From positions 1-57,014 of the forward strand of contig JAJCYI010000166.1 of NCBI GenBank assembly GCA_029263015.1: a DNA stretch of 57,014 nucleotides, written 5' to 3'. This document shows positions 41,986 through 55,866 of the stretch, piece by piece. Below the pieces are notes generated by a model. That model did not search any database. It saw only the letters and a list, made by a program, of their open reading frames with translations, and was not told where the DNA came from. The translations under genes were made by a program, and so were the position numbers. This DNA comes from Saprospiraceae bacterium (lineage in GTDB: Bacteria; Bacteroidota; Bacteroidia; Chitinophagales; Saprospiraceae). Positions within the stretch are counted from its first letter, which is position 1, and every line of letters starts with the position of its first letter.

Positions 41986-44900
41986 TTACCTCACAATTAC
42001 CAACCGTTTCACGCCCCACAACTCCCCGCTCGTTACGCGCAATTGGTAATGACCGTTGATAAGAAAACTTAAGTCCAACACTTCTTTTGCTGTGCCGTTT
42101 CCTGCCGCTTCTTTGTGGTAAACCAATTTACCTGCAAGATCATAAACGGTGAGCTGCAAATCATTTACCGCGGGTGTTTTGATGGTCAAATTAAATACGC
42201 CCGGTCCAGGGTTAGGTGAAACCTCGAACAACAGGCCTCCATCAACCTCGTTCACGCTGTTGAAATTCACCTCGATGGTCATCGTGACCGTACATCCGTT
42301 TTCGTCCATGACCACTATTTCATAAACACCGTTTGGCAAGTCGTTGAATACATTTCCAGATTGGAAGGTGACACCGTCATCAATGGAATATTGCAGGTCG
42401 CCAGTACCACCTCCGGCATTGATAGTCAGGTTGTTATCGACCAAATCGGCATCAACCACAATCGGAGGAGGAGCATCTATCAAGATTGGATGGGCATACC
42501 ATTCAAAACCTGTTGAATCAACCACGAGAAAAATATACTCACCAATGCCGAGACTGTCATAAAGCAAGTCGGAAGTGAGCGGTCCGTCGTTGAGTGAAAA
42601 CAGGAAGGGCGAATACCCACCTTCAACACCTTCAATATAAACTTGCCCATCCTCAGAGTCAGCACAAGAAGCTGGGGTGACTACAAAAAAGACAATTTCT
42701 GGTTTATTGACCACCACTTCAATTTCTTCAGAGCAGCCATTTTCATCCATTACGATTACGTTGTAAGTGCCATTCCAAACCACCTCGTATTCATTTTCAG
42801 ACTGAAAAGGTTCGCCGTCAAAACTATAAGTTAAAGTACCCGTGCCACCAGAGGCATCCACAGAAATGACTGGGCCAAACGCACTGCCATCAGCAAGGAT
42901 CGGCAATGGGTTAATAATCGTGATGACAGGCGCTATCACGATCTGTCCAACAGCATCTTTTAGGGTCGGCTGATAGTTGCCAGGAGCAAGATCCGTAAAA
43001 GTATTGCTGGCCTGAAAACTGAAACCATCAAGGCTGTATTCATAAGGCGGAATACCTCCCGATGCATTGATGACAACAATTCCATCGGCGCCGAAATAGC
43101 AGCTGACCTGTTGCTCAATAATTGCAATCACTTGCAACGGCAATACATTCACAGAAACAGTAGTCGATGTTTCACAACCATTGGCATCCTGCACTGTAAC
43201 GGTGTGGATGCCATTGGCTACATCGATAAAAATATTAGACGATTGGAAGCTGCCGTTGTCCAGTTGATAAAGATATGGAGAGGTGCCGCCGCCAGCATTC
43301 ACGGTAACTTCAGTATTATTGGAGGTAGCGGAAGCCATGATGGCTGACGGTGCAATAATGGTAAGTGGAGCAGAATTAATGGTGAAACCACCACTATCCA
43401 TGATCGTGACGGTGTAATTGCCAGCAACCAGGCCTGTGAAAATATTGCTGCTTTGGAAGGAACCACCATTGAGGTTGTATTCATAAGGTGGAACTCCGCC
43501 ACCAGCCACCACTGTAATCTGACCTTCATTGCCATCGTGGCAAAGAGGAACTTGGGAAACTTCTAAACCAACCGTCAAAACTGGCACATCCACCTCAGCA
43601 GAAAGGTCTGTTTTACAACCATTTTCATCCAAAACAGTAATTGTGTGAGTACCTGTGGCCACGGGGTAAAAAGTATTGTCACTTTGAAAGGAGCCGCCAT
43701 TGAGGCTGTACTGCAGCGTGCCCGTCCCACCATTTGCAGATACATTTATTTCATAACCATTTGCGGAAGCGCTACCTGTGATCTGTGAAGGCTGCGTCAG
43801 TATAATTGAGGTCGCCTGGGTAAATCCATCTGCATCTTTGACTGTTATAAAATAGGTACCAGCAGCCAAATTTTGGAACACATTGCTACTTTGGAAATTC
43901 ACTCCATCCAGGCTGTATTCAAATGGCATACTACCACCACTCACATTTGCAGTTATTTCGCCATCATTGCCGCCGAAACAATCAATATCCTGTGTTTGCG
44001 AAGCAGAAACAACTAAAGTATTGACCAAAACAGTAGCAGTAGTCGTTTCCATACATCCATTTTCATCCATCACGGTAATGGTGTAAGTACCGTTTGCAAG
44101 ATTTTCAAAAACATTGCTGGACTGGAAGTTTGTGCCGTCAATGCTGTACTGCAACGTTCCTGTGCCGCCATTTCCATTTGCTGAAATATCGTCATCATTG
44201 ACCGAAGCCGTCAAGGTCAGTACAGCTGGGTCATTCAAAGTTACATCGTTGGTGGTTTGTGTAAAACCATCGTCATCCAAGACGGTGATGGAATAGGTGG
44301 CAGCAGGGAGGTTGTCAAAGGTTGGATCATTTTGGGAAGGTCCGCCATTGAGGCTGTACGTATATGGCGGCGTACCGCCGCCCACATTTGCAGAGATGGT
44401 CCCATCGTCTTCGCCAGTACAAGAAACCTCCTCCACGACCACTGCATTAACAACCAAAGTGTTCACTGCGACAACCGCTGTGGTTGTTTCGGTACATCCA
44501 TTTTCATCCAAAACCGTGATTGTATAAACGCCATTGGCAAGATTTTCAAAAACATTGCTGCCTTGATAATTGGTGCCATCAATGCTGTATTGCAAAGTCC
44601 CTGTGCCACCATTGGCAGTCACGGTGATGTCATCGTCCACCACATCCGCTGCTGCGGTGATGGCAGGTGGGTTATTGATCGTAATAGCGTTGGTGGTCAC
44701 GGTCAGGCCATCTGAATCGGTCACGGTCACTTCGTAAACACCCTCGCCAAGGTTGTCGAATTCATTGGAACTTTGAGGATTTCCTCCGTTCAGGCTGTAT
44801 TCCAAAGGTGGCGTTCCGCCCACAGCTGTTATTGTGATAATGGCATTGTTGGCATCGTGGCAGTCGATGCTTTGGGTCAAAATTGCGGAAGCAGAAATAA

Positions 44901-47900
44901 CACTTTCAATAATTTCGATCTGGAACAACCGGTAGTGCAGCCAACGGTTTTCATCATCAGCTACATCAAATAGGAATTCGTCAGCCGTGGTCATACTGCC
45001 GTCGTGTTCGTAACTTACGTTTCCGCTATTAATGTCTTCTTGGGTAAATGAATCGCCCAATTCCAGTGTATCTCCCTGTAAATATAGAAGGCCATTTTCC
45101 GGAAGGGAAAGTAAAATAAACTGCGTCATTGAAGGCGTGCCCTCAGCTTCCAAGTAACTATCAGTAATCGCTTTTTCTTGGCCTTGTGTAACGGGCAGGA
45201 TGTTGTTATTGAGCAGTACTGCTTCAGGATATTCGATGGTGCCGCAGAGATCGATATACCAGTTGTTTATCGAACCCCCATCCTCAGTTGGAAACAAGTC
45301 TTCAATGGTCAAAGTCCAAGTGCCTTGGCTACTTTCTCCATTGAAAACGGAGAACGCAGTCAATGGCTGATAATCCCCTGAAATTGCTGGCGGGAAAGGG
45401 TTGCAAGCATCTTCAAAATCGGTTGCTGAATTGGGCGCATCATCAGAAAAACCGACTTCCAGATCGTCCGTATCACAACCAAAAGTGCTGGCAGGTTCCC
45501 CTGGACGATTGAACAATAAGGCATTGGTCGCAGAGGGCGACGACAATGTGGCAAGCAGGTCGCCGACCCAACTGTGGGCTATTTCCATATAGACATACAA
45601 AGTGGCAATAGGGTAATCATCGGGAATTTCGAGCGTGCTGGTCACTGTGCCATTTCCATTTACGGGGATGGTAATAGGCACGTCATCACTGATGTACTGC
45701 CCACATTCCAGCCCGCCTGTTTGAAAAGCAAAAAATGGAGAATGAGGGCCGTCGTTGCAAATATTGGATCCTTTCACCCGCCAGTAATACACTTGTCCTT
45801 CCAGCAAGGTGGGCAGGTTGTAGGCATTCGTGCCAACCGTTGCCATGTGCTCAATAGACTGAAACCCAGGATCGAATGCCAGCTCCACCAGATAGTTAGT
45901 CGCTGCCGCAATATTTTCCCAGGATAAACTTGCCCCGATGGATGCCACACCTGTTTCGCCATCGGCTGGGCTGGTCAGTACCACGGCATTGCTTACCGAA
46001 TCGAGTACGACCAAATCAACAAAAATATTATTGGTAATGGAGGGGGTCGTTGCCTCCACATTTATGGTATAGTTTCCGGGAGTCACATTTTCCAATTCCC
46101 CAATGGTCATGGTCACCGTACCGGGAGGGGTTAACGAATTGGGTTGAAATTCCAAAGTAGCACCTGGAGGTGTGCCAGTAGCAGAAAATTGGATTTCTTC
46201 ATTGAACCCTAAAAAGGATTGAAGATCAAATATATAGTCAACTTCCCCAGTCGGGCAGGCTGTCTGGATGGCGGGTTCGACAGCGATGGTGAACGTTGGC
46301 ACCGAAGGCATTTCGATGGTGAAATTTTCATCAGAGAGGTCGTAAAAAACATTGTTGCCACCTTTTACCATAATACGTGCTGTGGAGGTTTCCACATTGG
46401 GTACCTGCACGGATTGACTACCGTCGTTAGGAGTGCCAGCCAATAGGATATGGGGATAAGTCTGCCCACCATCGACCGACAGCAAAATATCAACGGTGCT
46501 GGCATTGACAGGCGATCCATCGGTATTCGCCACGTCCCAGGTTACCATTTCCATAAAATTAGAACTCCAGACCACTGCGCTTGTATTTGGTTCTGTCACT
46601 TCAAAAGGGCCAGCGCTTGCTGAAAAGCTTAAGATCACATCTGCTTCTGCAGTACATCCTCCCCCAGCGTTATTGTCCCTTACGGTGACTCGGAAATTCA
46701 TGTTCCGCCCCACAGACGGGAGCACTTCCCAGGTTTCTGTCGAATTGTTCAAAACAGTATTTAGGTTCGGGAAATACCGGCTCGGCGATATTTTGGGCGA
46801 TAATGTCCGGAATGCCGGCCCCCCTGTATTGGTCGACTGCGGTGGCATAGCGGCTACTTGGTTGTCCATTTGTTCCCAGCAATAAGAAAGGGCATTACCA
46901 TTTGGATCTGAGCCATCGGCGGTCAATACAAATGGAGTAGAAATGGGTACGTTATAAAACCCACCAGGCACGGTCACCGATGGAGCGTCGTTGCCATTGT
47001 TTGTTTCTGTGGCGCAGTTCGTACCGGAAATATGGCTGCCCATTTCATCCAGGCTGATTGCATGGAAATAATCGTCGCTATTGTTCTGCACATTGGGTGC
47101 GCAAATACCCGCATATCCCATAATGGTGCTGGCACTGCCAGGTTCCATAGCAGTTGGCCCATTGCGGTTACAGGAATTGTTTTGCGTGTGGTTGCCTCCG
47201 AACTGATGACCCATTTCATGCGCCACAAAATCCACGTAAAACTGATCGCCGACAGGGCTGCTCAGTCCCGTAACGCCTCTGGCTTTTGTGCTGTTGGTGC
47301 AAACAGAATTCAAAAAGGCCACTCCTCCTCCTCCAGTCGAAAACACATGGCCGATGTCGTAATTGGCATTGCCGATAATGTTGTCACATGTTGTTTGGTT
47401 CTGGCCAAGCATAGTGCCCCCACTATTATTCGTGTAAGGATCGGTGGCAGCATTTAAAAAAATCAAGTCGTCGTTGTTGGGCACCATGACCATCGTGACG
47501 TCCACCTCCCGTTCATAAATACCGTTCACCCGAGCCATGGCAACGTTGAATTCTGCTACTACATCAGGTACCGTCCCACCATGGAACTGGGCATATTCAC
47601 CAGTACAGGCAAGCGCCAATTCATAAGTCCGGAACTGGCAATCGCCCGCCATTTTTGACATCGCGGTTTTTTTAGCAGGTATATGCTTTTTGGTCTCTTT
47701 CATTTCATCTACCCAACAGGTAAACGGGTCTTCTTTCGAGTAGTCTTTTTTGAAATAACAAACATAATGCTCTATATCGCCAACTGCATAAACATCAATA
47801 TAGACAGTGCTGTACTGGGCCGATAGCACCATGGCGTGGAACCCTTTTGGTGAAATGCCGAAACGCAGATAAGCGGTCGGGTCTTCCTCACTCCAACCCG

Positions 47901-48243
47901 CATAGGTTTTTATTTCTGGGAATTTGGCGGCCAGGTCGGGGTGCATGACAGGGGCTTCCACAATCTGGAATTCCTGGAAAACACCATCTGGCATCGGTAT
48001 GACGAGGGTCGATATTTTAGATTTTGCCTCGTCGCTGAAACGCATGGGTGCATCTTTCAGGATATCATCCAAAATAGCGAGGTCAAGGGAAAAGGTTTGG
48101 TATTCATTGGGGACAATCCTCCTTTCTGCATTTTTTTTTGCGAAAGTAATTTCCGTGGTTTCTTGCCAAGGATTGTTTTTTGATTGTGAAAAAAGGGAAA
48201 AGGAGAGTAGTATTCCAAGGGTCGAGAAGTACAGTTTTTTCAT
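41986..48243 (-). CDS. giant secreted reprolysin-type metalloprotease with P domain, SprB repeats and T9SS signal
   Basis: 2085 residues from ATG 48243 (MKKLYFSTLGILLSFSLFSQ signal peptide); the longer frame to 48426 is rejected. A propeptide of about 200 residues precedes the metzincin domain with zinc motif HEMGHQFGGNH near residue 341 and Met-turn STIMGYAGIC. Ig/fibronectin-like modules cover about 460-840 and a proprotein-convertase P domain about 850-1005 (AHSWVGDLLATLSSPS). A cadherin/CSPG-like segment runs to about 1115. Twelve SprB-like units cover about 1115-1990. A T9SS type A domain ends the protein (VSPNPGPGVFNLTIKTP, YDLAGKLVYHKEA). It is probably a cell-surface or released protease, with the repeats as a stalk or adhesin. 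Confidence 0.9.
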   Translation of the reverse strand: MKKLYFSTLGILLSFSLFSQSKNNPWQETTEITFAKKNAERRIVPNEYQTFSLDLAILDDILKDAPMRFSDEAKSKISTLVIPMPDGVFQEFQIVEAPVMHPDLAAKFPEIKTYAGWSEEDPTAYLRFGISPKGFHAMVLSAQYSTVYIDVYAVGDIEHYVCYFKKDYSKEDPFTCWVDEMKETKKHIPAKKTAMSKMAGDCQFRTYELALACTGEYAQFHGGTVPDVVAEFNVAMARVNGIYEREVDVTMVMVPNNDDLIFLNAATDPYTNNSGGTMLGQNQTTCDNIIGNANYDIGHVFSTGGGGVAFLNSVCTNSTKARGVTGLSSPVGDQFYVDFVAHEMGHQFGGNHTQNNSCNRNGPTAMEPGSASTIMGYAGICAPNVQNNSDDYFHAISLDEMGSHISGTNCATETNNGNDAPSVTVPGGFYNVPISTPFVLTADGSDPNGNALSYCWEQMDNQVAAMPPQSTNTGGPAFRTLSPKISPSRYFPNLNTVLNNSTETWEVLPSVGRNMNFRVTVRDNNAGGGCTAEADVILSFSASAGPFEVTEPNTSAVVWSSNFMEMVTWDVANTDGSPVNASTVDILLSVDGGQTYPHILLAGTPNDGSQSVQVPNVETSTARIMVKGGNNVFYDLSDENFTIEMPSVPTFTIAVEPAIQTACPTGEVDYIFDLQSFLGFNEEIQFSATGTPPGATLEFQPNSLTPPGTVTMTIGELENVTPGNYTINVEATTPSITNNIFVDLVVLDSVSNAVVLTSPADGETGVASIGASLSWENIAAATNYLVELAFDPGFQSIEHMATVGTNAYNLPTLLEGQVYYWRVKGSNICNDGPHSPFFAFQTGGLECGQYISDDVPITIPVNGNGTVTSTLEIPDDYPIATLYVYMEIAHSWVGDLLATLSSPSATNALLFNRPGEPASTFGCDTDDLEVGFSDDAPNSATDFEDACNPFPPAISGDYQPLTAFSVFNGESSQGTWTLTIEDLFPTEDGGSINNWYIDLCGTIEYPEAVLLNNNILPVTQGQEKAITDSYLEAEGTPSMTQFILLSLPENGLLYLQGDTLELGDSFTQEDINSGNVSYEHDGSMTTADEFLFDVADDENRWLHYRLFQIEIIESVISASAILTQSIDCHDANNAIITITAVGGTPPLEYSLNGGNPQSSNEFDNLGEGVYEVTVTDSDGLTVTTNAITINNPPAITAAADVVDDDITVTANGGTGTLQYSIDGTNYQGSNVFENLANGVYTITVLDENGCTETTTAVVAVNTLVVNAVVVEEVSCTGEDDGTISANVGGGTPPYTYSLNGGPSQNDPTFDNLPAATYSITVLDDDGFTQTTNDVTLNDPAVLTLTASVNDDDISANGNGGTGTLQYSIDGTNFQSSNVFENLANGTYTITVMDENGCMETTTATVLVNTLVVSASQTQDIDCFGGNDGEITANVSGGSMPFEYSLDGVNFQSSNVFQNLAAGTYFITVKDADGFTQATSIILTQPSQITGSASANGYEINVSANGGTGTLQYSLNGGSFQSDNTFYPVATGTHTITVLDENGCKTDLSAEVDVPVLTVGLEVSQVPLCHDGNEGQITVVAGGGVPPYEYNLNGGSFQSSNIFTGLVAGNYTVTIMDSGGFTINSAPLTIIAPSAIMASATSNNTEVTVNAGGGTSPYLYQLDNGSFQSSNIFIDVANGIHTVTVQDANGCETSTTVSVNVLPLQVIAIIEQQVSCYFGADGIVVINASGGIPPYEYSLDGFSFQASNTFTDLAPGNYQPTLKDAVGQIVIAPVITIINPLPILADGSAFGPVISVDASGGTGTLTYSFDGEPFQSENEYEVVWNGTYNVIVMDENGCSEEIEVVVNKPEIVFFVVTPASCADSEDGQVYIEGVEGGYSPFLFSLNDGPLTSDLLYDSLGIGEYIFLVVDSTGFEWYAHPILIDAPPPIVVDADLVDNNLTINAGGGTGDLQYSIDDGVTFQSGNVFNDLPNGVYEIVVMDENGCTVTMTIEVNFNSVNEVDGGLLFEVSPNPGPGVFNLTIKTPAVNDLQLTVYDLAGKLVYHKEAAGNGTAKEVLDLSFLINGHYQLRVTSGELWGVKRLVIVR
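42270..44900 (-). repeat. six dimeric SprB-type superrepeats (twelve units) in the metalloprotease
   Basis: Units of about 72 residues alternate between two types. Type A has a Cys and an acidic turn, then GGTPPYEYSLNGGxFQSSNxF, aGxYxVTVxDxDGFT. Type B has GGTGTLQYSIDGTNFQSSNV, then ENLANGTYTITVMDENGC. Six A-B pairs of about 145 residues give a higher-order period of roughly 435 bp. DNA identity between some type B units is high, so they may recombine. Confidence 0.85.
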
Positions 48244-48673
48244 ACGAAGGTTAGTTGTGTGGTTTTTGATTCCAAATAAAGGGCGGTTCATTTTCTTAGT
48301 ACTGTAAATATATGCTGCGTAGTTGGATGTGTAAACAGGATAACAATAGTATGTAGGATAGGCTGCAATTTGAATGCCGATGTTAGAATGGAAAAACAGC
48401 ACGGGCAAATTCAATGATCCAAACAAGTAGGCAATAAATTTGGAAGCGGCATTTCAGGAGGTGGCCTATTTGTGATTTGTGATTTGTGGGAAGTAAAAAA
48501 AGCGGGGAGTTCGTCAATAACTAAAAAAGACAAGCTGGCAGTAAAAAATTGATGTAGTGGAGAAGGTTGGAGTTGTCAACTTTTTAAAAAGTTGACAACT
48601 CTATGCTCGCAACCTCCTGATAATCAGGGTGAAATTTCAAGCCTTGATTCACATTAGTACATTCAAATCAGGG
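48244..48673. other. 430-bp intergenic region upstream of the metalloprotease
   Basis: It holds the metalloprotease promoter region on its left side, where an ACGCAGC string occurs on the minus strand near 48320 but without the correctly spaced second half of the ECF motif, and a perfect hairpin at 48570-48601. No coding frame or RNA gene is supportable. Confidence 0.5.
48570..48601 (-). terminator. 32-nt perfect palindrome, terminator of the seven-repeat gene
   Basis: GAGTTGTCAACTTTTT and its exact complement meet without a separate loop, forming a 16-bp palindrome with A/T at the centre. It lies 73 bp after the stop of the leftward seven-repeat gene. The T tract is central rather than trailing, so a regulatory or repeat role is also possible. 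Confidence 0.5.
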
Positions 48674-51292: not shown

Positions 51293-51485
51293 AAAAAAGG
51301 AAAATTTGATGTGATGGTGCTTTGATGAAAAGGTGAGGTCAACATTAGACCTTATTTGATAGGGCGGTCTTCACAAGATTGATAATAGCCTACCGAATAA
51401 CCATGTAAATCATTGAAAGTCATTGTGTTACAAATTGTAGTCGGATTAAGGACTTTTATCAACTTTTGGGACAGCCTCGAATACT

Positions 51486-51669
51486 TAAGTACCTAAATTC
51501 AAATAATCGACATTTTGGTGACGAACTCTTTTTCCGCCATACTTTGTTAAAAAAAATGACCGTAACTATGGCTATGCTAATTTTTTTTGTCTCGTCTGAC
51601 GAAAAAACCTGCCTGCCGGTAGGCAGGTAACCTCGTCAAAAGTGTCGATTATTTAAATTCAGGTACTTA
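51486..51669. mobile_element. miniature palindromic element (MITE-like), copy 2
   Basis: A 184-bp relative of the element at 24238-24400. Its inverted ends are TAAGTACCTAAATTCAAATA and, read on the other strand, TAAGTACCTGAATTTAAATA; the AATCGACA block follows in both. The centre, GTTAAAAAAAATGACC then ACTATGGCTATGCTAA and a T8 run, matches copy 1. A 20-bp CCTGCCTGCC-type palindrome is nested at 51608-51627. It lies in the long leader of the seven-repeat gene. Confidence 0.7.
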
Positions 51670-51731
51670 TCTTCATCCCACAGCTAACCAAAGAACCAAT
51701 TATTTAGATTAGGATAAAGACAGTTGTGTTA

Positions 51732-51764
51732 CCCTGTACCACATTGGAGTGGAAAAGGCTGCGT
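51732..51764 (-). promoter_or_regulatory. ECF-type bipartite promoter, copy 3
   Basis: On the minus strand ACGCAGCCTTTTCC is followed after 11 nt by GTACAGGG. Both halves and the spacing match the copies at 52227-52259 and 54308-54340. The next gene downstream is the seven-repeat T9SS protein, 439 nt away, across a MITE-like element. Confidence 0.65.
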
Positions 51765-51787
51765 AGTTATAGGATTAGCGGACACTG

Positions 51788-52183
51788 TCAGTTGTCCTGA
51801 GCACCTTCGTCGATCCAGGCTTTTATTTGAGAAATTTCGCAGTCGGGAATTGGGTCTTTGCCAAGTGGCATGGCCACAAAACCCATTAGTTGGGCCGCTG
51901 CTCCATATAAGCGACCTTCATCCACTTTCGCTTTCACCCCGTCGTAGCTGTCGAGCAAAAACCCGCTGGTGGGATTGCCGCCACTGTGGCAGCCGTTGTA
52001 GCAGTTCTGTTCGAGTATGGGAACAATGACATCGGCGAAACTAACATCAGTCGTGTCGCAGCCCATTGGATCGGGGTCTGGGTCGGGGATTTCCACAATG
52101 CTGTCGTTTTTGCAAGAAGAAACAATGAGCATAATAAGTAGCAAGAAAGCAGAAGTTGTTTTCAAGAAAAAAGGTAGTTTCAT
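51788..52183 (-). CDS. small c-type cytochrome-like lipoprotein
   Basis: A 131-residue lipoprotein: signal MKLPFFLKTTSAFLLLIMLI, with the lipobox SSC following (Cys24). An acidic Pro-Asp linker (IPDPDPDPMGCD) leads to a cytochrome-c-like domain with VSFADVIVPILEQNCYNGCH: the heme site is C-YNG-CH, i.e. CxxxCH rather than CxxCH. VAMPLGKDPIPDCEISQIKA supplies a probable distal Met. The family resembles the planctomycete-type cytochrome C domain common in Bacteroidota. It is preceded at 52227-52259 by the ECF-type promoter and is probably under the sigma factor encoded at 53729-54286. Confidence 0.78.
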   Translation of the reverse strand: MKLPFFLKTTSAFLLLIMLIVSSCKNDSIVEIPDPDPDPMGCDTTDVSFADVIVPILEQNCYNGCHSGGNPTSGFLLDSYDGVKAKVDEGRLYGAAAQLMGFVAMPLGKDPIPDCEISQIKAWIDEGAQDN

Positions 52184-52226
52184 TTCGGTAGGATGTTTTT
52201 GAAAAATGTGAAATCGTGTATGCTAC

Positions 52227-52259
52227 ACCCATACCAGAAGGAGATGGGAAAGGCTGCGT
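52227..52259 (-). promoter_or_regulatory. ECF-type bipartite promoter, copy 2
   Basis: On the minus strand ACGCAGCCTTTCCC and, at the same 25-nt offset as in the other copies, GTATGGGT. It ends 43 nt before the ATG of the cytochrome-like lipoprotein, a normal promoter distance. Confidence 0.75.
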
Positions 52260-52359
52260 AAAGTCAACTTTTTTTGTAAAACATTCCTCCCACCCTTTTA
52301 GAAGGAACGGATGGGCATTCGGGACGGCGCATTAAAATCGATTGCCTATCATGTAATTT

Positions 52360-53736
52360 TTACTTCACCCTCAAGTTGGCTTTCATACTGAATCCGAAAC
52401 TCCACAACTTGACATTCCCATGCCCTACACCAGTTAAAGGAATTTGTAAGTAAGGTTCAAATTGGAGCGAAATCCTGCGGTTCAATACTTTGTTGTACCC
52501 AACTGAAAACTGGCTGATTCCGAACCAATGGTTGCTGCCATTGCTTGTTTGCCACTCGCTGATCAACTCTGGGTCGGGTGGGTTGTAATAATAGCCATAC
52601 CATTCCCATAGCATGAAATATGACGTTAGGCCAGCACTCATATAAAACCCATCGCTGGAGTAGCCTTTGGGGAAATAGCCAACGGTGATTGGCACCTCCA
52701 GAATATTGCAAATGCCGGAACTGGATTTTGGAGCAATGCCATTGGTCCAGAATCCTATTGGAGGGATGTATTCGCCCGAACCGGCCATGTACCTTTTTCG
52801 GATAAAATTAGCACCGAGGGTGGTGCTGTATTTGGTACGGTAACGGTATTCGATTTGCCCGCCGATTTTCCAACTGGTTTTGGAAAAATCTCCCATGCCA
52901 ACCGAGGTTAGTTCGCCTGCAGCTACCAAGCCGATGAGTAAAGCGTTGTTGTTTTGAAAAAGCGTGTTTTCTTTTTTATGATCTACAGTTTCTTCTTCAA
53001 ATATATTTGTAGCAGCGAAATCGGATGCGGTAAGAATAGTAGAAGGGTGTTCCAACAGAGCCAACGGTAAAACTGGGAGTTTGGACAATCCTTGTTTGTC
53101 AACATTTATTTTTTTGTCGAAAGTTGCCAAGCTATCCAGCCCATCGTGGGTTTGTAAAATCAATTGATTGGCTCCCTCGTTGGTCAAACCATCTCCTTTT
53201 TCTGTTTTATTTTCAAGACCAGCATCAGCTATCGGTGGCGGTTTTATGATCTCTTTGGTGGGGGTGTTCCTTTTTTCTGTGGTTTTTGTTGAGCCTTTCG
53301 GAGCGTAGGAATCTAAAGTTTTTGTCTTGCTTGGTTGGGTGTTGTCGACTCCATTAATAGTATTTGGCAAGGTGTCTTCTTCATTTGGAGCGGGTTCGGA
53401 AACCGCCTGGCTTTTATTGTTGGGAAGGCTGGGGCTTTGTTGGTTTTCACGGTTAAGGTTCGTTTGATTGTTTTGAAGATTGCTTTGTTCGGTTTTTTGA
53501 CCTGCTGAATTTGATTTGGCAAGTTCAGTGGTTTCTTTCCCAAAAAACCAAATCGAACCCGCCAATAACAACACGCCCAGGCCACCCAACCACCACCAAA
53601 TGAAAAAGCGGCGGCGGTCGTCCTTGTCAAGCAAGGATTCCATCTGTTCCCATGCTTCAGCATTGTACCCGAAGTCATACTGCTCCGATCCCTTCCGGAA
53701 CAGTTTATCCAGTTTTTTTGGTGACTTATCAGACAT
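52360..53736 (-). CDS. membrane-anchored sigma-partner candidate with C-terminal beta-barrel
   Basis: A 458-residue protein. Residues 1-42 are cytosolic and helical (KKLDKLFRKGSEQYDFGYNA, then AWEQMESLLD), in the style of Bacteroidota proteins encoded next to ECF factors. One membrane segment covers about 44-65 (FIWWWLGGLGVLLLAGSIWF). A 150-residue Asn/Gln/Thr/Pro-rich linker follows. From about 250 to the end the pattern is an outer-membrane beta-barrel (IGGQIEYRYRTKYSTTLGAN, YFPKGYSSDGFYMSAGLTSY, ending FSMKANLRVK). Its ATG overlaps the sigma gene end by 8 nt. Inference: an anti-sigma or co-regulator that could span from inner to outer membrane. It carries no recognised zinc anti-sigma motif. 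Confidence 0.72.
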   Translation of the reverse strand: MSDKSPKKLDKLFRKGSEQYDFGYNAEAWEQMESLLDKDDRRRFFIWWWLGGLGVLLLAGSIWFFGKETTELAKSNSAGQKTEQSNLQNNQTNLNRENQQSPSLPNNKSQAVSEPAPNEEDTLPNTINGVDNTQPSKTKTLDSYAPKGSTKTTEKRNTPTKEIIKPPPIADAGLENKTEKGDGLTNEGANQLILQTHDGLDSLATFDKKINVDKQGLSKLPVLPLALLEHPSTILTASDFAATNIFEEETVDHKKENTLFQNNNALLIGLVAAGELTSVGMGDFSKTSWKIGGQIEYRYRTKYSTTLGANFIRKRYMAGSGEYIPPIGFWTNGIAPKSSSGICNILEVPITVGYFPKGYSSDGFYMSAGLTSYFMLWEWYGYYYNPPDPELISEWQTSNGSNHWFGISQFSVGYNKVLNRRISLQFEPYLQIPLTGVGHGNVKLWSFGFSMKANLRVK

Positions 53737-54286
53737 AAGGATTGTCCAGTTTTGCGGTGACCAATTCTTGCAATTTTGCCCTTGCCCTGGTCAAATTGGA
53801 TTTTGAAGTGCTGACGCTGATGCCCAGTTTCTCTGCAATTTCCAGGTGCTTGAACCCATCGATCACATACATATTGAAAACGGTGCGGTAAGCTGTTGAG
53901 AGCGATTGCACCATGGCCATGAGTTCTTTGTAACCCAAGTGACTCAGAATATCTTCCCCAGCTGGGATATTTTTTGCTTCATCCATGCTGATTTCCATTT
54001 TAAACTTTTTTTGTTTTTTGACATGATTGATAGCGGTATTGACCACTATTTTCCGAAACCAAGGTTTAAACGGCTGTGCCGTATTGTATTTTTTTATGTT
54101 TTGAAAAGTCTTTAAAAACCCATCGTTCACCACCGAAATAGCCTCTGCTTCACTAGCGACATACCGAATGCAAATGCTCATCCCGTATGGGTAGAACAGC
54201 CTGTATAGTTCATTTTGGCTGCTGCGGTTCCGTTTACAGCAACCTTGGATGATTTGACTGAATTCCGTTTTCGTGCTTCGGTGCAT
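53729..54286 (-). CDS. ECF-family RNA polymerase sigma factor
   Basis: A 185-residue sigma-70 factor lacking region 1. Region 2 spans about 15-85 (NELYRLFYPYGMSICIRYVA, EAEAISVVNDGFLKTFQNIK, FKPWFRKIVVNTAINHVKKQ). Region 4 spans about 120-175 (LSTAYRTVFNMYVIDGFKHL, EIAEKLGISVSTSKSNLTRA). The start at 54286 is 21 nt after the GTATAAGG half of a bipartite promoter shared with two other sites, so it is likely autoregulated. It overlaps the following partner gene by 8 nt. Related Bacteroidota ECF factors respond to envelope signals. Confidence 0.93.
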   Translation of the reverse strand: MHRSTKTEFSQIIQGCCKRNRSSQNELYRLFYPYGMSICIRYVASEAEAISVVNDGFLKTFQNIKKYNTAQPFKPWFRKIVVNTAINHVKKQKKFKMEISMDEAKNIPAGEDILSHLGYKELMAMVQSLSTAYRTVFNMYVIDGFKHLEIAEKLGISVSTSKSNLTRARAKLQELVTAKLDNPYV

Positions 54287-54307
54287 GAAGAGGTTTTGAT
54301 ATAAATA

Positions 54308-54340
54308 CCTTATACAAAGGTAGGTGGGAAAAGGCTGCGT
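54308..54340 (-). promoter_or_regulatory. ECF-type bipartite promoter, copy 1 (sigma gene)
   Basis: On the minus strand ACGCAGCCTTTTCC, 11 nt, then GTATAAGG, ending 21 nt before the sigma gene ATG. The offset between halves equals that in the two other copies. It is the expected layout for an autoregulated ECF promoter. Confidence 0.75.
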
Positions 54341-54401: not shown

Positions 54402-54449
54402 TATCAAACAATAAAGCCTCTGCATTCACAGAGGCTTTATTGTTTGATA
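54402..54449 (-). terminator. strong terminator between peroxidase pseudogene and sigma gene
   Basis: A perfect 21-bp stem, with core CAAACAATAAAGCCTCTG, around a 6-nt loop; the outer part is A/T-rich, giving a U run on either strand. It lies 41 bp after the stop of the broken peroxidase gene. Confidence 0.85.
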
Positions 54450-54490: not shown

Positions 54491-55866
54491 TTATTTTATC
54501 ACAATTTTATCAATCCTAAATCGATCACCTTTTTTTATTTCTAAAAAATAAACTCCAATAGGCAGTCCATTCCTCTCCAAAACAGCACCTGCTTCATTGG
54601 TCGAAAATGACAGAACTGTTTGCCCTTGGCTGTTCTTTAGGTGGAAAACATATCTTTCCTGATTCGGATTTTCAAACTGGATTGTTGTTTTGTCATTAAA
54701 TGGGTTTGGATAGATGACAAAGGTTTCTTCCAGTGATTGTGGTTTAACCGCGTTTGGGTTTTGGAAAGGGTCGGAGAATTTTTCGAGCGTGGTCAAACCA
54801 TTTGAAGTCAGCGTTTGTAGAAAGGCAGTTAAATTATTGATGTCTGTGTCATCAAAATCAATCTGTCCAATGTTAAAAGTCTGCCCAGTATTCGGATTAT
54901 AATAATAGCTGAAATTGGGAATGCTGTCGCTATAAAAAATGGCAACCTCTTCCAACGTCTGGAACCGGCCATCGTGCATATAGGGCGCAGTCAGTTCAAT
55001 GTTTCGTAGCGATGGGGTCTTGAATTTCCCTAAATCTAATTCATCTCCGGTGACTTCCGCCCATCCAGGATCGGTAGTTGTCAAAGTGTTGGAGAGGGGT
55101 TTCAAAATACTGAATTGATGCGAAGAATGGCAAGTCAGGCAATTTTCGTTGAACAGTTCTTCACCGATTAATTCAGCTTCCGTGAAAGAAGCTTGACCAT
55201 CCTTGACCTGGTCGTATTTAGAATCAAAAACATTGAGTGACTTGACAAATTGAGCCAATGCTTCAGCGATCCGATCAGAAGTAATCGCCTCATCGTCAAA
55301 TGCAGCTTCAAAAAGGCCAGGGTAAAACGCTGTATCTTCTAATTTGGAAATTAAGACTTCCAAGTCCTTCCCCATTTCCCCCTGATGAACGATTGGTTGC
55401 AAAACCATCTTCTCCAATTCGGTTTCCCGGGCATCCCAGAATAGGGGAATGGCAGATGGAATGTAAGTTGGTTTCCAGCAAGGTCGTTGATGTTGGGAAC
55501 ATTCCTAGTCGTTTTTATTCCATTTATCCCTGTACTGAATTGTTGGTTATCTGTGAAAGCAAATTCCTGTTTATGGCAGGAACCACAGGACACTTCATTG
55601 GTGACGGACAACCTCTTGTCGTAAAACAGCACCCTGCCAAGCGTAGCCTTTTCCCTTGTCATAGTTTGGTTTACGTACTAGGCATTTTGATTTACCCAAA
55701 GTACATTGGCCATAATAAAATCAGTGAAAGGTATGTCGTAATTGAAAGGTTCGGCAGGTAAATGGGGCGTTGTGGGATCATCTACTAATGTGGCTTTTTT
55801 TAAAACAGTTGCAGAACATAAACAAACGAGGAGGGTCAGGACAAAGATGGAGTTGATTTTTTGCAT
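54491..55866 (-). pseudogene. di-heme cytochrome-c peroxidase (MauG/CcpA-like) with T9SS domain, broken
   Basis: Three leftward frames make one peroxidase. ATG 55866 opens a signal peptide (KINSIFVLTLLVCLCSATVL). In the same frame an amber TAG at 55680-55678 follows NVLWVNQNA, after which YVNQTMTREKATLGRVLFYD continues. First heme site is CGSCHKQ. Near 55450-55456 one base is lost, so the frame moves before the expected IPLFWDARETELEKMVLQPI. The rest is intact to 54491, with second heme CLTCHSS, the FKTPSLRNIELTAPYMHDGR motif and a T9SS sorting domain (FVIYPNPFNDKTTIQFENPN). A nonsense change plus an indel make it a likely pseudogene. It would have reduced peroxide in the envelope. Confidence 0.82.

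Follow-up and report, generated by a model that had tools for sequence, protein, structure and literature searches.

The Das/Dma pairs of Bacteroides thetaiotaomicron combine an ECF21 sigma factor with a dual membrane-spanning anti-sigma factor (as described in PMC13088901). A comparable arrangement is reported for EcfO/Reo of Bacteroides fragilis and Phocaeicola vulgatus, in which an ECF factor is paired with an anti-sigma factor that extends from the cytoplasm to the cell surface (PMC13114119, PMC7366714); a recognition motif for B. fragilis EcfO is in print, according to PMC7366714. Two further cases involve T9SS genes. The SM6 promoters of Flavobacterium psychrophilum are described as ECF-type, with a CGT box at -10 (PMC9723704), and SigP of Porphyromonas gingivalis is presented in PMC4800418 as an ECF factor tied to the T9SS that is under PorXY control and acts on T9SS machinery genes. 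Many Bacteroidota ECF sigma factors have unknown promoters. At the locus described here, a promoter appears to be readable from the sequence.

The DNA studied, referred to below as the window, is the whole stretch of 57,014 nt at positions 1-57,014 of contig JAJCYI010000166.1 of Saprospiraceae bacterium (GCA_029263015.1). An initial annotation had placed three copies of a two-block motif on one of its strands and interpreted them as the promoters of an autoregulated ECF factor. When the sequence was read again the coordinates were found to be exact, the copies lay on the minus strand, and in all three the second block (GTATAAGG, GTATGGGT and GTACAGGG) begins 25 nt after the first base of the first. 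All three copies are intergenic among the genes described at the locus (Table 1). They end 21 nt (copy 1, sigma gene), 43 nt (copy 2, lipoprotein gene) and 439 nt (copy 3, T9SS gene) before the respective ATG, and a search of the sites for known RNAs returned no Rfam match at the gathering score. The reading that we favor, with a probability of about 0.86, is that all three are promoters recognized by the ECF sigma factor whose gene is at 53729-54286.

Table 1. Features of the locus and their positions in the window.
Feature	Position	Strand	Remarks
Predicted promoter, copy 1	54308..54340	-	putative -35 ACGCAGCCTTTTCC, putative -10 GTATAAGG; 5' of sigma gene; position kept in 7/7 orthologues
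Predicted promoter, copy 2	52227..52259	-	putative -35 ACGCAGCCTTTCCC, putative -10 GTATGGGT; 5' of lipoprotein gene
Predicted promoter, copy 3	51732..51764	-	putative -35 ACGCAGCCTTTTCC, putative -10 GTACAGGG; target uncertain; next minus-strand gene 439 nt away
Perfect 21-nt inverted repeat, likely terminator	54402..54449		parts copy 1 from upstream gene
ECF sigma factor gene, 185 aa	53729..54286	-	Pfam Sigma70_r2 + r4_2; residues N87, S159, R167
Anti-sigma-like protein, 458 aa	52360..53736	-	8-nt overlap with sigma gene
Lipoprotein, 131 aa, one CX3CH motif	51788..52183	-	relatives with CXXCH, CX3CH or CX4CH
MITE-like repeat	51486..51669		31-nt inverted ends; between copy 3 and T9SS gene
Terminator-like hairpin in MITE-like repeat	51607..51628	-	same direction as transcription from copy 3; T residues follow
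T9SS cargo protein, 872 aa	48674..51292	-	seven DFYAD...DHAWR repeats + Por_Secre_tail

The protein products are in keeping with a sigma/anti-sigma operon. The sigma factor has the small size of the ECF class (group 4), both of its Pfam domains score above the cut-off, and regions 1 and 3 are absent among the Pfam matches listed. The overlapping gene encodes a protein without a Pfam match, whose computed layout consists of N-terminal helices, a membrane helix at about residues 44-62 (the most hydrophobic stretch), a disordered segment (69-260) and a well-modelled barrel (265-456). The best PDB matches of the barrel are OmpA-type barrels, the top one at E 3.4e-7. The anti-sigma factor is thus predicted to start in the cytoplasm and to end in an outer-membrane barrel. 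The lipoprotein likewise has no Pfam match, and its NCBIfam match (LIC11213 lipoprotein) falls far under the cut-off. Its resemblance to c-type cytochromes consists of its own single CX3CH and the CXXCH of relatives, with no match to a curated cytochrome family.

Whole-genome counts were made in the 6,950,393 bases of the window genome. ACGCAGCCTTT occurs three times, at exactly these three sites, and the reversed control pattern does not occur. Base composition predicts about 2.5 occurrences per genome, which makes the count by itself ordinary. What is far from random is that a single 2.6-kb stretch has all three, in one orientation and with the same offset to GTA. The combined pattern ACGCAGCCTTT-N11..17-GTA picks out the same three sites genome-wide (control, 0), against an expectation of about 0.3 for a whole genome and 0.0001 for the 2.6-kb stretch. 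Allowing as many as three mismatches in the full 33-nt pattern also returned these three only (control, 1). A chance origin of the three copies is ruled out by these counts. A looser pattern, GCARCCNNTTN13-16GTAYDGK, was found at 26 places in 7 genomes versus 5 for its control. Six of its matches are in the window genome (control, 0), among them copy 3 and a site 5' of a paralogous sigma gene (on contig C155).

Orthologous loci were compared in a survey of 60 related genomes, the window's included, 58 of which gave an ECF match at E <= 1e-20. Sigma factors with at least 55% identity to that of the window were taken as orthologues, and these were present in seven genomes, again with the window's included. 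GCARCCNTTT-N13/14-GTA lies 5' of the sigma gene in all seven; the distance between its GCA and the start codon is 52-55 nt in six of them and 89 nt in the other. The repeat protein with the T9SS signal was found in 5 of the 60 genomes, and all five are among the seven with a sigma orthologue (hypergeometric p 4e-6, uncorrected for kinship). The gene order is sigma, anti-sigma, T9SS repeat protein, lipoprotein in two of these genomes (G003 and G005) and sigma, anti-sigma, T9SS repeat protein in a third (G014). No motif copy was seen 5' of the T9SS gene in these three genomes, where the gene directly follows that for the anti-sigma factor; in G010 the gene is at a contig end. The window genome differs from G003, G005 and G014 in gene order and in having the promoter in triplicate.

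For a wider view of the family, the best 80 of at least 584 ECF loci in named genomes were collected. Three were left out, two because they had already been used (L101 and L112, identical to G010 and G022) and one because it had no upstream sequence (L143), which gave 47 usable loci with a homologous anti-sigma factor and 30 without. With no motif supplied, the commonest upstream hexamer in the former was GCAACC (35/47), and GTA stood at offset 23 after GCARCC or GCARCG at 26 of 42 sites, the same offset as in the window. The bipartite motif was present in 34/47 loci with the homologous anti-sigma factor versus 1/30 without, so that a conserved -35/-10 pair precedes the sigma factor's own gene, as expected of an autoregulated promoter, both in the 7/7 orthologues and in these 34 further loci. 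Dinucleotide shuffles for the 47 loci gave a mean of 0.3-0.4 and a maximum of 3 (300 rounds). The strict pattern was absent in 13/47 loci, and in 6/47 it occurred on the reverse strand as well, which is above the shuffle mean and unexplained. The 30 other loci contain 15 GCARCC sites; GTC was found at offset 22 in 5/15, and GTA was at none of the top entries listed. It therefore seems from these counts that the -35 core is shared by ECF factors of the phylum and that the -10 letters and the spacing are specific to the branch of the window sigma. In these terms ACGCAGCC, part of the motif as initially defined, is a local form of a wider motif, approximately A-N-GCAACC-N17-GTA.

If the sigma factor reads these letters, changes in the DNA should be matched by changes in the protein. 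Regions 4.2 and 2.4 of ECF factors read the -35 and -10 elements, and published work on ECF promoter specificity reportedly rewired it by covariation, with sigma residues and promoter letters changing together. A first table was made from 37 sigma/promoter pairs with an exact 17-nt gap, in which variable residues were compared with 14 promoter positions. The top partner of base -1 (before GCARCC) was residue 167 (z 14.5), that of base +3 was residue 159 (z 10.6, followed by 167, 157 and 166), and that of the base before GTA was residue 87 (z 19.4). Less selective promoter positions had maxima that were lower and scattered, such as z 6.0 for base 28 and residue 78 or z 5.8 for base 25 and residue 121. 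We take residues 157-167 of the window sigma to be in region 4.2 and residue 87 to be in region 2.4.

A later set was gathered through the anti-sigma factor and not through the sigma factor or the motif. Sixty of the matching regions were fetched, 59 of which had a sigma gene; L211, which duplicates L113, was excluded. The strict motif was present in 20/58, comprising 20/27 loci with stronger anti-sigma matches (L212-L239) and 0/31 with weaker ones (L240-L270). Only the 37-pair table was recorded before this set was fetched. In the 20 later pairs, base -1 was a purine with K167 in 19/19 and C with R167 in 1/1. The base before GTA was C with D87 in 10/10, T (8) or G (1) with N87, and A with T87 in one pair. 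The later pairs agreed with the first table for residue 167 and, apart from one unclassifiable row, for residue 87. Base +3 was A with G159 in all of them; since no row has S159, the switch at residue 159 rests on the earlier pairs. A 64-pair table admitted gaps of 16-18 nt, a range required by the pattern, and pairs without a strict site were unscored. In it C at -1 never occurs with K167. The code is broken by three pairs that combine A and R167, by A together with S159 (3) or N159 (1), and by eight pairs in which D87 is matched by some base that is not C. The G before GTA in copies 2 and 3 is a less usual partner of N87, found in 2/25 pairs. On a tree built without the scored columns, changes of base and residue numbered 5 and 5, 7 and 7, and 5 and 6. 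Independent pairs on well-supported branches changed in the same direction in 2.3/3, 3.5/5 and 1.8/3 cases on average and never in the opposite one, numbers too few for significance. Within the window genome, the C155 paralogue has K167, G159 and D87 together with promoter letters that match those residues. Taken together, the pairs support covariation between the promoter letters and the DNA-reading residues of the sigma factor, with kinship only partly controlled. The proposal of an autoregulated ECF promoter is supported by the motif 5' of the sigma gene in every orthologue, by the same spacing in separate loci and by this covariation.

Conservation alone cannot separate an operator from a promoter, and two blocks at a fixed spacing would also suit a dimeric regulator, so the motif could be the binding site of a separate regulator common to these genes and not a sigma promoter at all. 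We consider this quite unlikely given that each of the two blocks co-varies with a DNA-reading region of its own in the sigma factor, and that the GTA peak at offset 23, which was unforced, corresponds to promoter spacing (the 16-18 nt in 64/64 pairs was imposed by the pattern). No other shared regulator gene came to notice incidentally. It is likewise quite unlikely that the sites are real ECF promoters read by another, or by several, of the ECF factors of the genome. There are 15 matches to the window sigma in the genome at E <= 1e-6, and PMC9723704 brings up an overlap of ECF regulons in F. psychrophilum. However, the combination N87, S159 and R167 is found among the 15 only in the window sigma and in L053, a distant protein (22% identical) with an internal stop, and orthologues elsewhere have a fitting motif 5' of their own gene. 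The adjoining of copy 3 by a multicopy MITE-like repeat raises a further scenario, in which the three copies are functionless remnants of one duplicated or mobile sequence. This is very unlikely, as there is little likeness among the copies outside the two blocks, the motif is absent elsewhere in the genome, and it is conserved in place in other species.

Promoters read by the window sigma would work as follows. Region 4.2 (residues ~157-167) would read the first block as a -35 element, and region 2.4, through residue 87, would read GTA with its flanks as a -10 element; we infer start sites for transcription accordingly placed by the two elements. The anti-sigma factor would connect the cytoplasm, through the inner membrane, with its outer-membrane barrel, and the sigma factor would come free of it when something changes at the outer membrane; here we infer both the anti-sigma binding and the signal. 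Once released, the sigma factor would activate its own operon with the anti-sigma factor from copy 1, raise the cytochrome-like lipoprotein from copy 2 and raise whatever copy 3 transcribes. The sigma/anti-sigma operon and the lipoprotein are the likely targets, and copy 2 is well placed for the lipoprotein gene.

The target of copy 3 is less certain. The copy does lie upstream of the seven-repeat T9SS protein, as had been pointed out, but its service to that gene is doubtful because a MITE-like repeat, present in many copies and containing a terminator-like hairpin, intervenes. At least 40 long copies of this repeat occur in the genome (40 of 203 candidates were scored). No minus-strand ORF longer than 36 aa was found in 51300-51740 that could be a small gene between the two. 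We give about even odds that the T9SS repeat protein is driven by copy 3; a different promoter may now serve its gene. The assignment of the protein as T9SS cargo is based on a Por_Secre_tail match of 35.6 bits versus a cut-off of 27. A model of two of its repeats is all beta with a pLDDT of 57, and a PDB sequence search with the repeat gave one match, at E 0.32.

The genes downstream of the wider set of operons suggest what such systems control. At 30 of the 47 loci, 79 proteins encoded directly 3' of the anti-sigma gene were surveyed with Pfam. The families found were DUF5777 (13), YceI (12), Cytochrome_CBB3 (8), SprB repeats (5), CHRD (4) and, with 3 each, Lipoprotein_15, Rieske, PSCyt1 and Por_Secre_tail. 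A comparison group of 63 proteins, counted from the gene after sigma, came from 29 of the 30 loci without a homologous anti-sigma factor; DUF5777, YceI, cytochrome and Rieske families are all absent among the 25 of its 40 families that were listed. The commonest family listed there is OMP_b-brl_2 (12), so barrel anti-sigma factors probably occur in those loci also. Homologues of the window lipoprotein were found at 6/47 loci versus 0/30. Rhodohalobacter sulfatireducens, a cultured carrier, has two motif copies within 12.5 kb, one 5' of a lipoprotein gene and one 5' of the sigma gene, and its sigma operon is followed by genes that, read by eye, are cupredoxin-like, cytochrome-like, YceI-like and DUF5777-like. 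From these downstream families and the R. sulfatireducens genes, the output is likely to be a redox module of the envelope.

Combining these parts gives a broader proposal, which we hold to be slightly better than an even bet. A branch of Bacteroidota ECF factors paired with trans-envelope barrel anti-sigma factors would read its promoter by a code, in which K or R at residue 167 corresponds to a purine or C before GCARCC, G or S at 159 to CAACC or CAGCC, and D or N at 87 to C or T before the -10 GTA. The output would be a cell-surface electron-transfer module (DUF5777 barrels, YceI, c-type cytochromes and Rieske proteins directly downstream in many loci), which a secreted T9SS repeat protein would have joined in the lineage of the window. 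One switch protein probably turns on the marked genes, its own included, and in related bacteria the sigma factor and the signal that marks its genes probably change together. Three sigma residues thus appear to predict three promoter letters; regulon prediction in uncultured members and sigma/promoter swaps for testing would then be possible. The tie between redox genes and a signalling protein that extends to the outer membrane is a lead on the purpose of such systems.

Among the described systems, SigP differs from the window sigma in its proposed motif, which is unlike the window sites when the motif given in PMC4800418 is compared by eye. A GCAACC in a P. gingivalis ECF paper was considered as a possible instance of the same motif and proved, in the text concerned, to be merely part of a qPCR probe (PMC5607195). 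The SM6 promoters resemble the arrangement in the window in that one is 5' of an ECF sigma/anti-sigma pair and others are 5' of T9SS genes (as reported in PMC9723704), but the SM6 targets named there are core T9SS components, whereas the window would contribute a T9SS cargo protein at most. Reo, whose layout is described in words in PMC13114119, is like the window anti-sigma factor in spanning cytoplasm to cell surface, and the EcfO regulon members named in that literature are NigD proteins, unlike the window genes. The layout is also like that of Das/Dma, where, as in the window, the sigma gene adjoins that of an anti-sigma factor with an N-terminal domain, a membrane helix, a disordered tether and a C-terminal barrel. 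The passages of PMC13088901 on these pairs give no promoter motif. The outputs described for Das/Dma are vesicles and glycan loci (PMC13088901), whereas those of the window would be cytochrome-like and T9SS proteins.

Two copies of the bipartite motif were identified at the ECF locus of Rhodohalobacter sulfatireducens, one located upstream of a lipoprotein gene and the other upstream of the sigma gene, with redox-type genes coming next after these motif-bearing genes. In the close relative G010, two tandem ECF-type sites are distant from the sigma gene, and the gene following them encodes a 237-aa membrane protein. Matches to the motif on the reverse strand were also detected in 6 of the 47 loci with a match to the window anti-sigma (upstream regions of L102-L172), a frequency exceeding that in shuffles.

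Features in the window and in other genomes
Feature	Location	Details
Two motif copies, Rhodohalobacter sulfatireducens	L113:4894-10335	
Tandem ECF-type sites, G010	L097:623-852	start ACGCAGCC... and AGGCAACC...
Sigma orthologue, related genome G005	L042:6113-6668	spread over two reading frames
Di-heme enzyme-like gene	54491-55662	same strand as sigma, upstream of it
Large repeat protein	41986-48426	2146 aa; features read by eye
MITE-like repeat	51486-51669	~184 nt; inverted ends of 31 nt each

The MITE-like repeat is present genome-wide in at least 40 long copies. Many of its copies lie at contig ends of its own genome, and the repeat therefore probably breaks the assembly. The large repeat protein contains a metalloprotease-type motif (HEMGHQFGGNH) and numerous repeats that resemble one another, and its C-terminal end is T9SS-like.

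The product of the di-heme enzyme-like gene resembles MbnH/MauG di-heme enzymes and carries a T9SS tail. Its gene is split over two overlapping frames (54491-55417 and 55351-55662); either the frame is broken or the sequence contains an error. Bacteroidota ECF loci lacking a match to the window anti-sigma (L135-L180) share GCAACC, but at several of them the -10 element is GTC and the spacing is shorter. Of the 63 proteins encoded downstream at these loci, 12 match OMP_b-brl_2.
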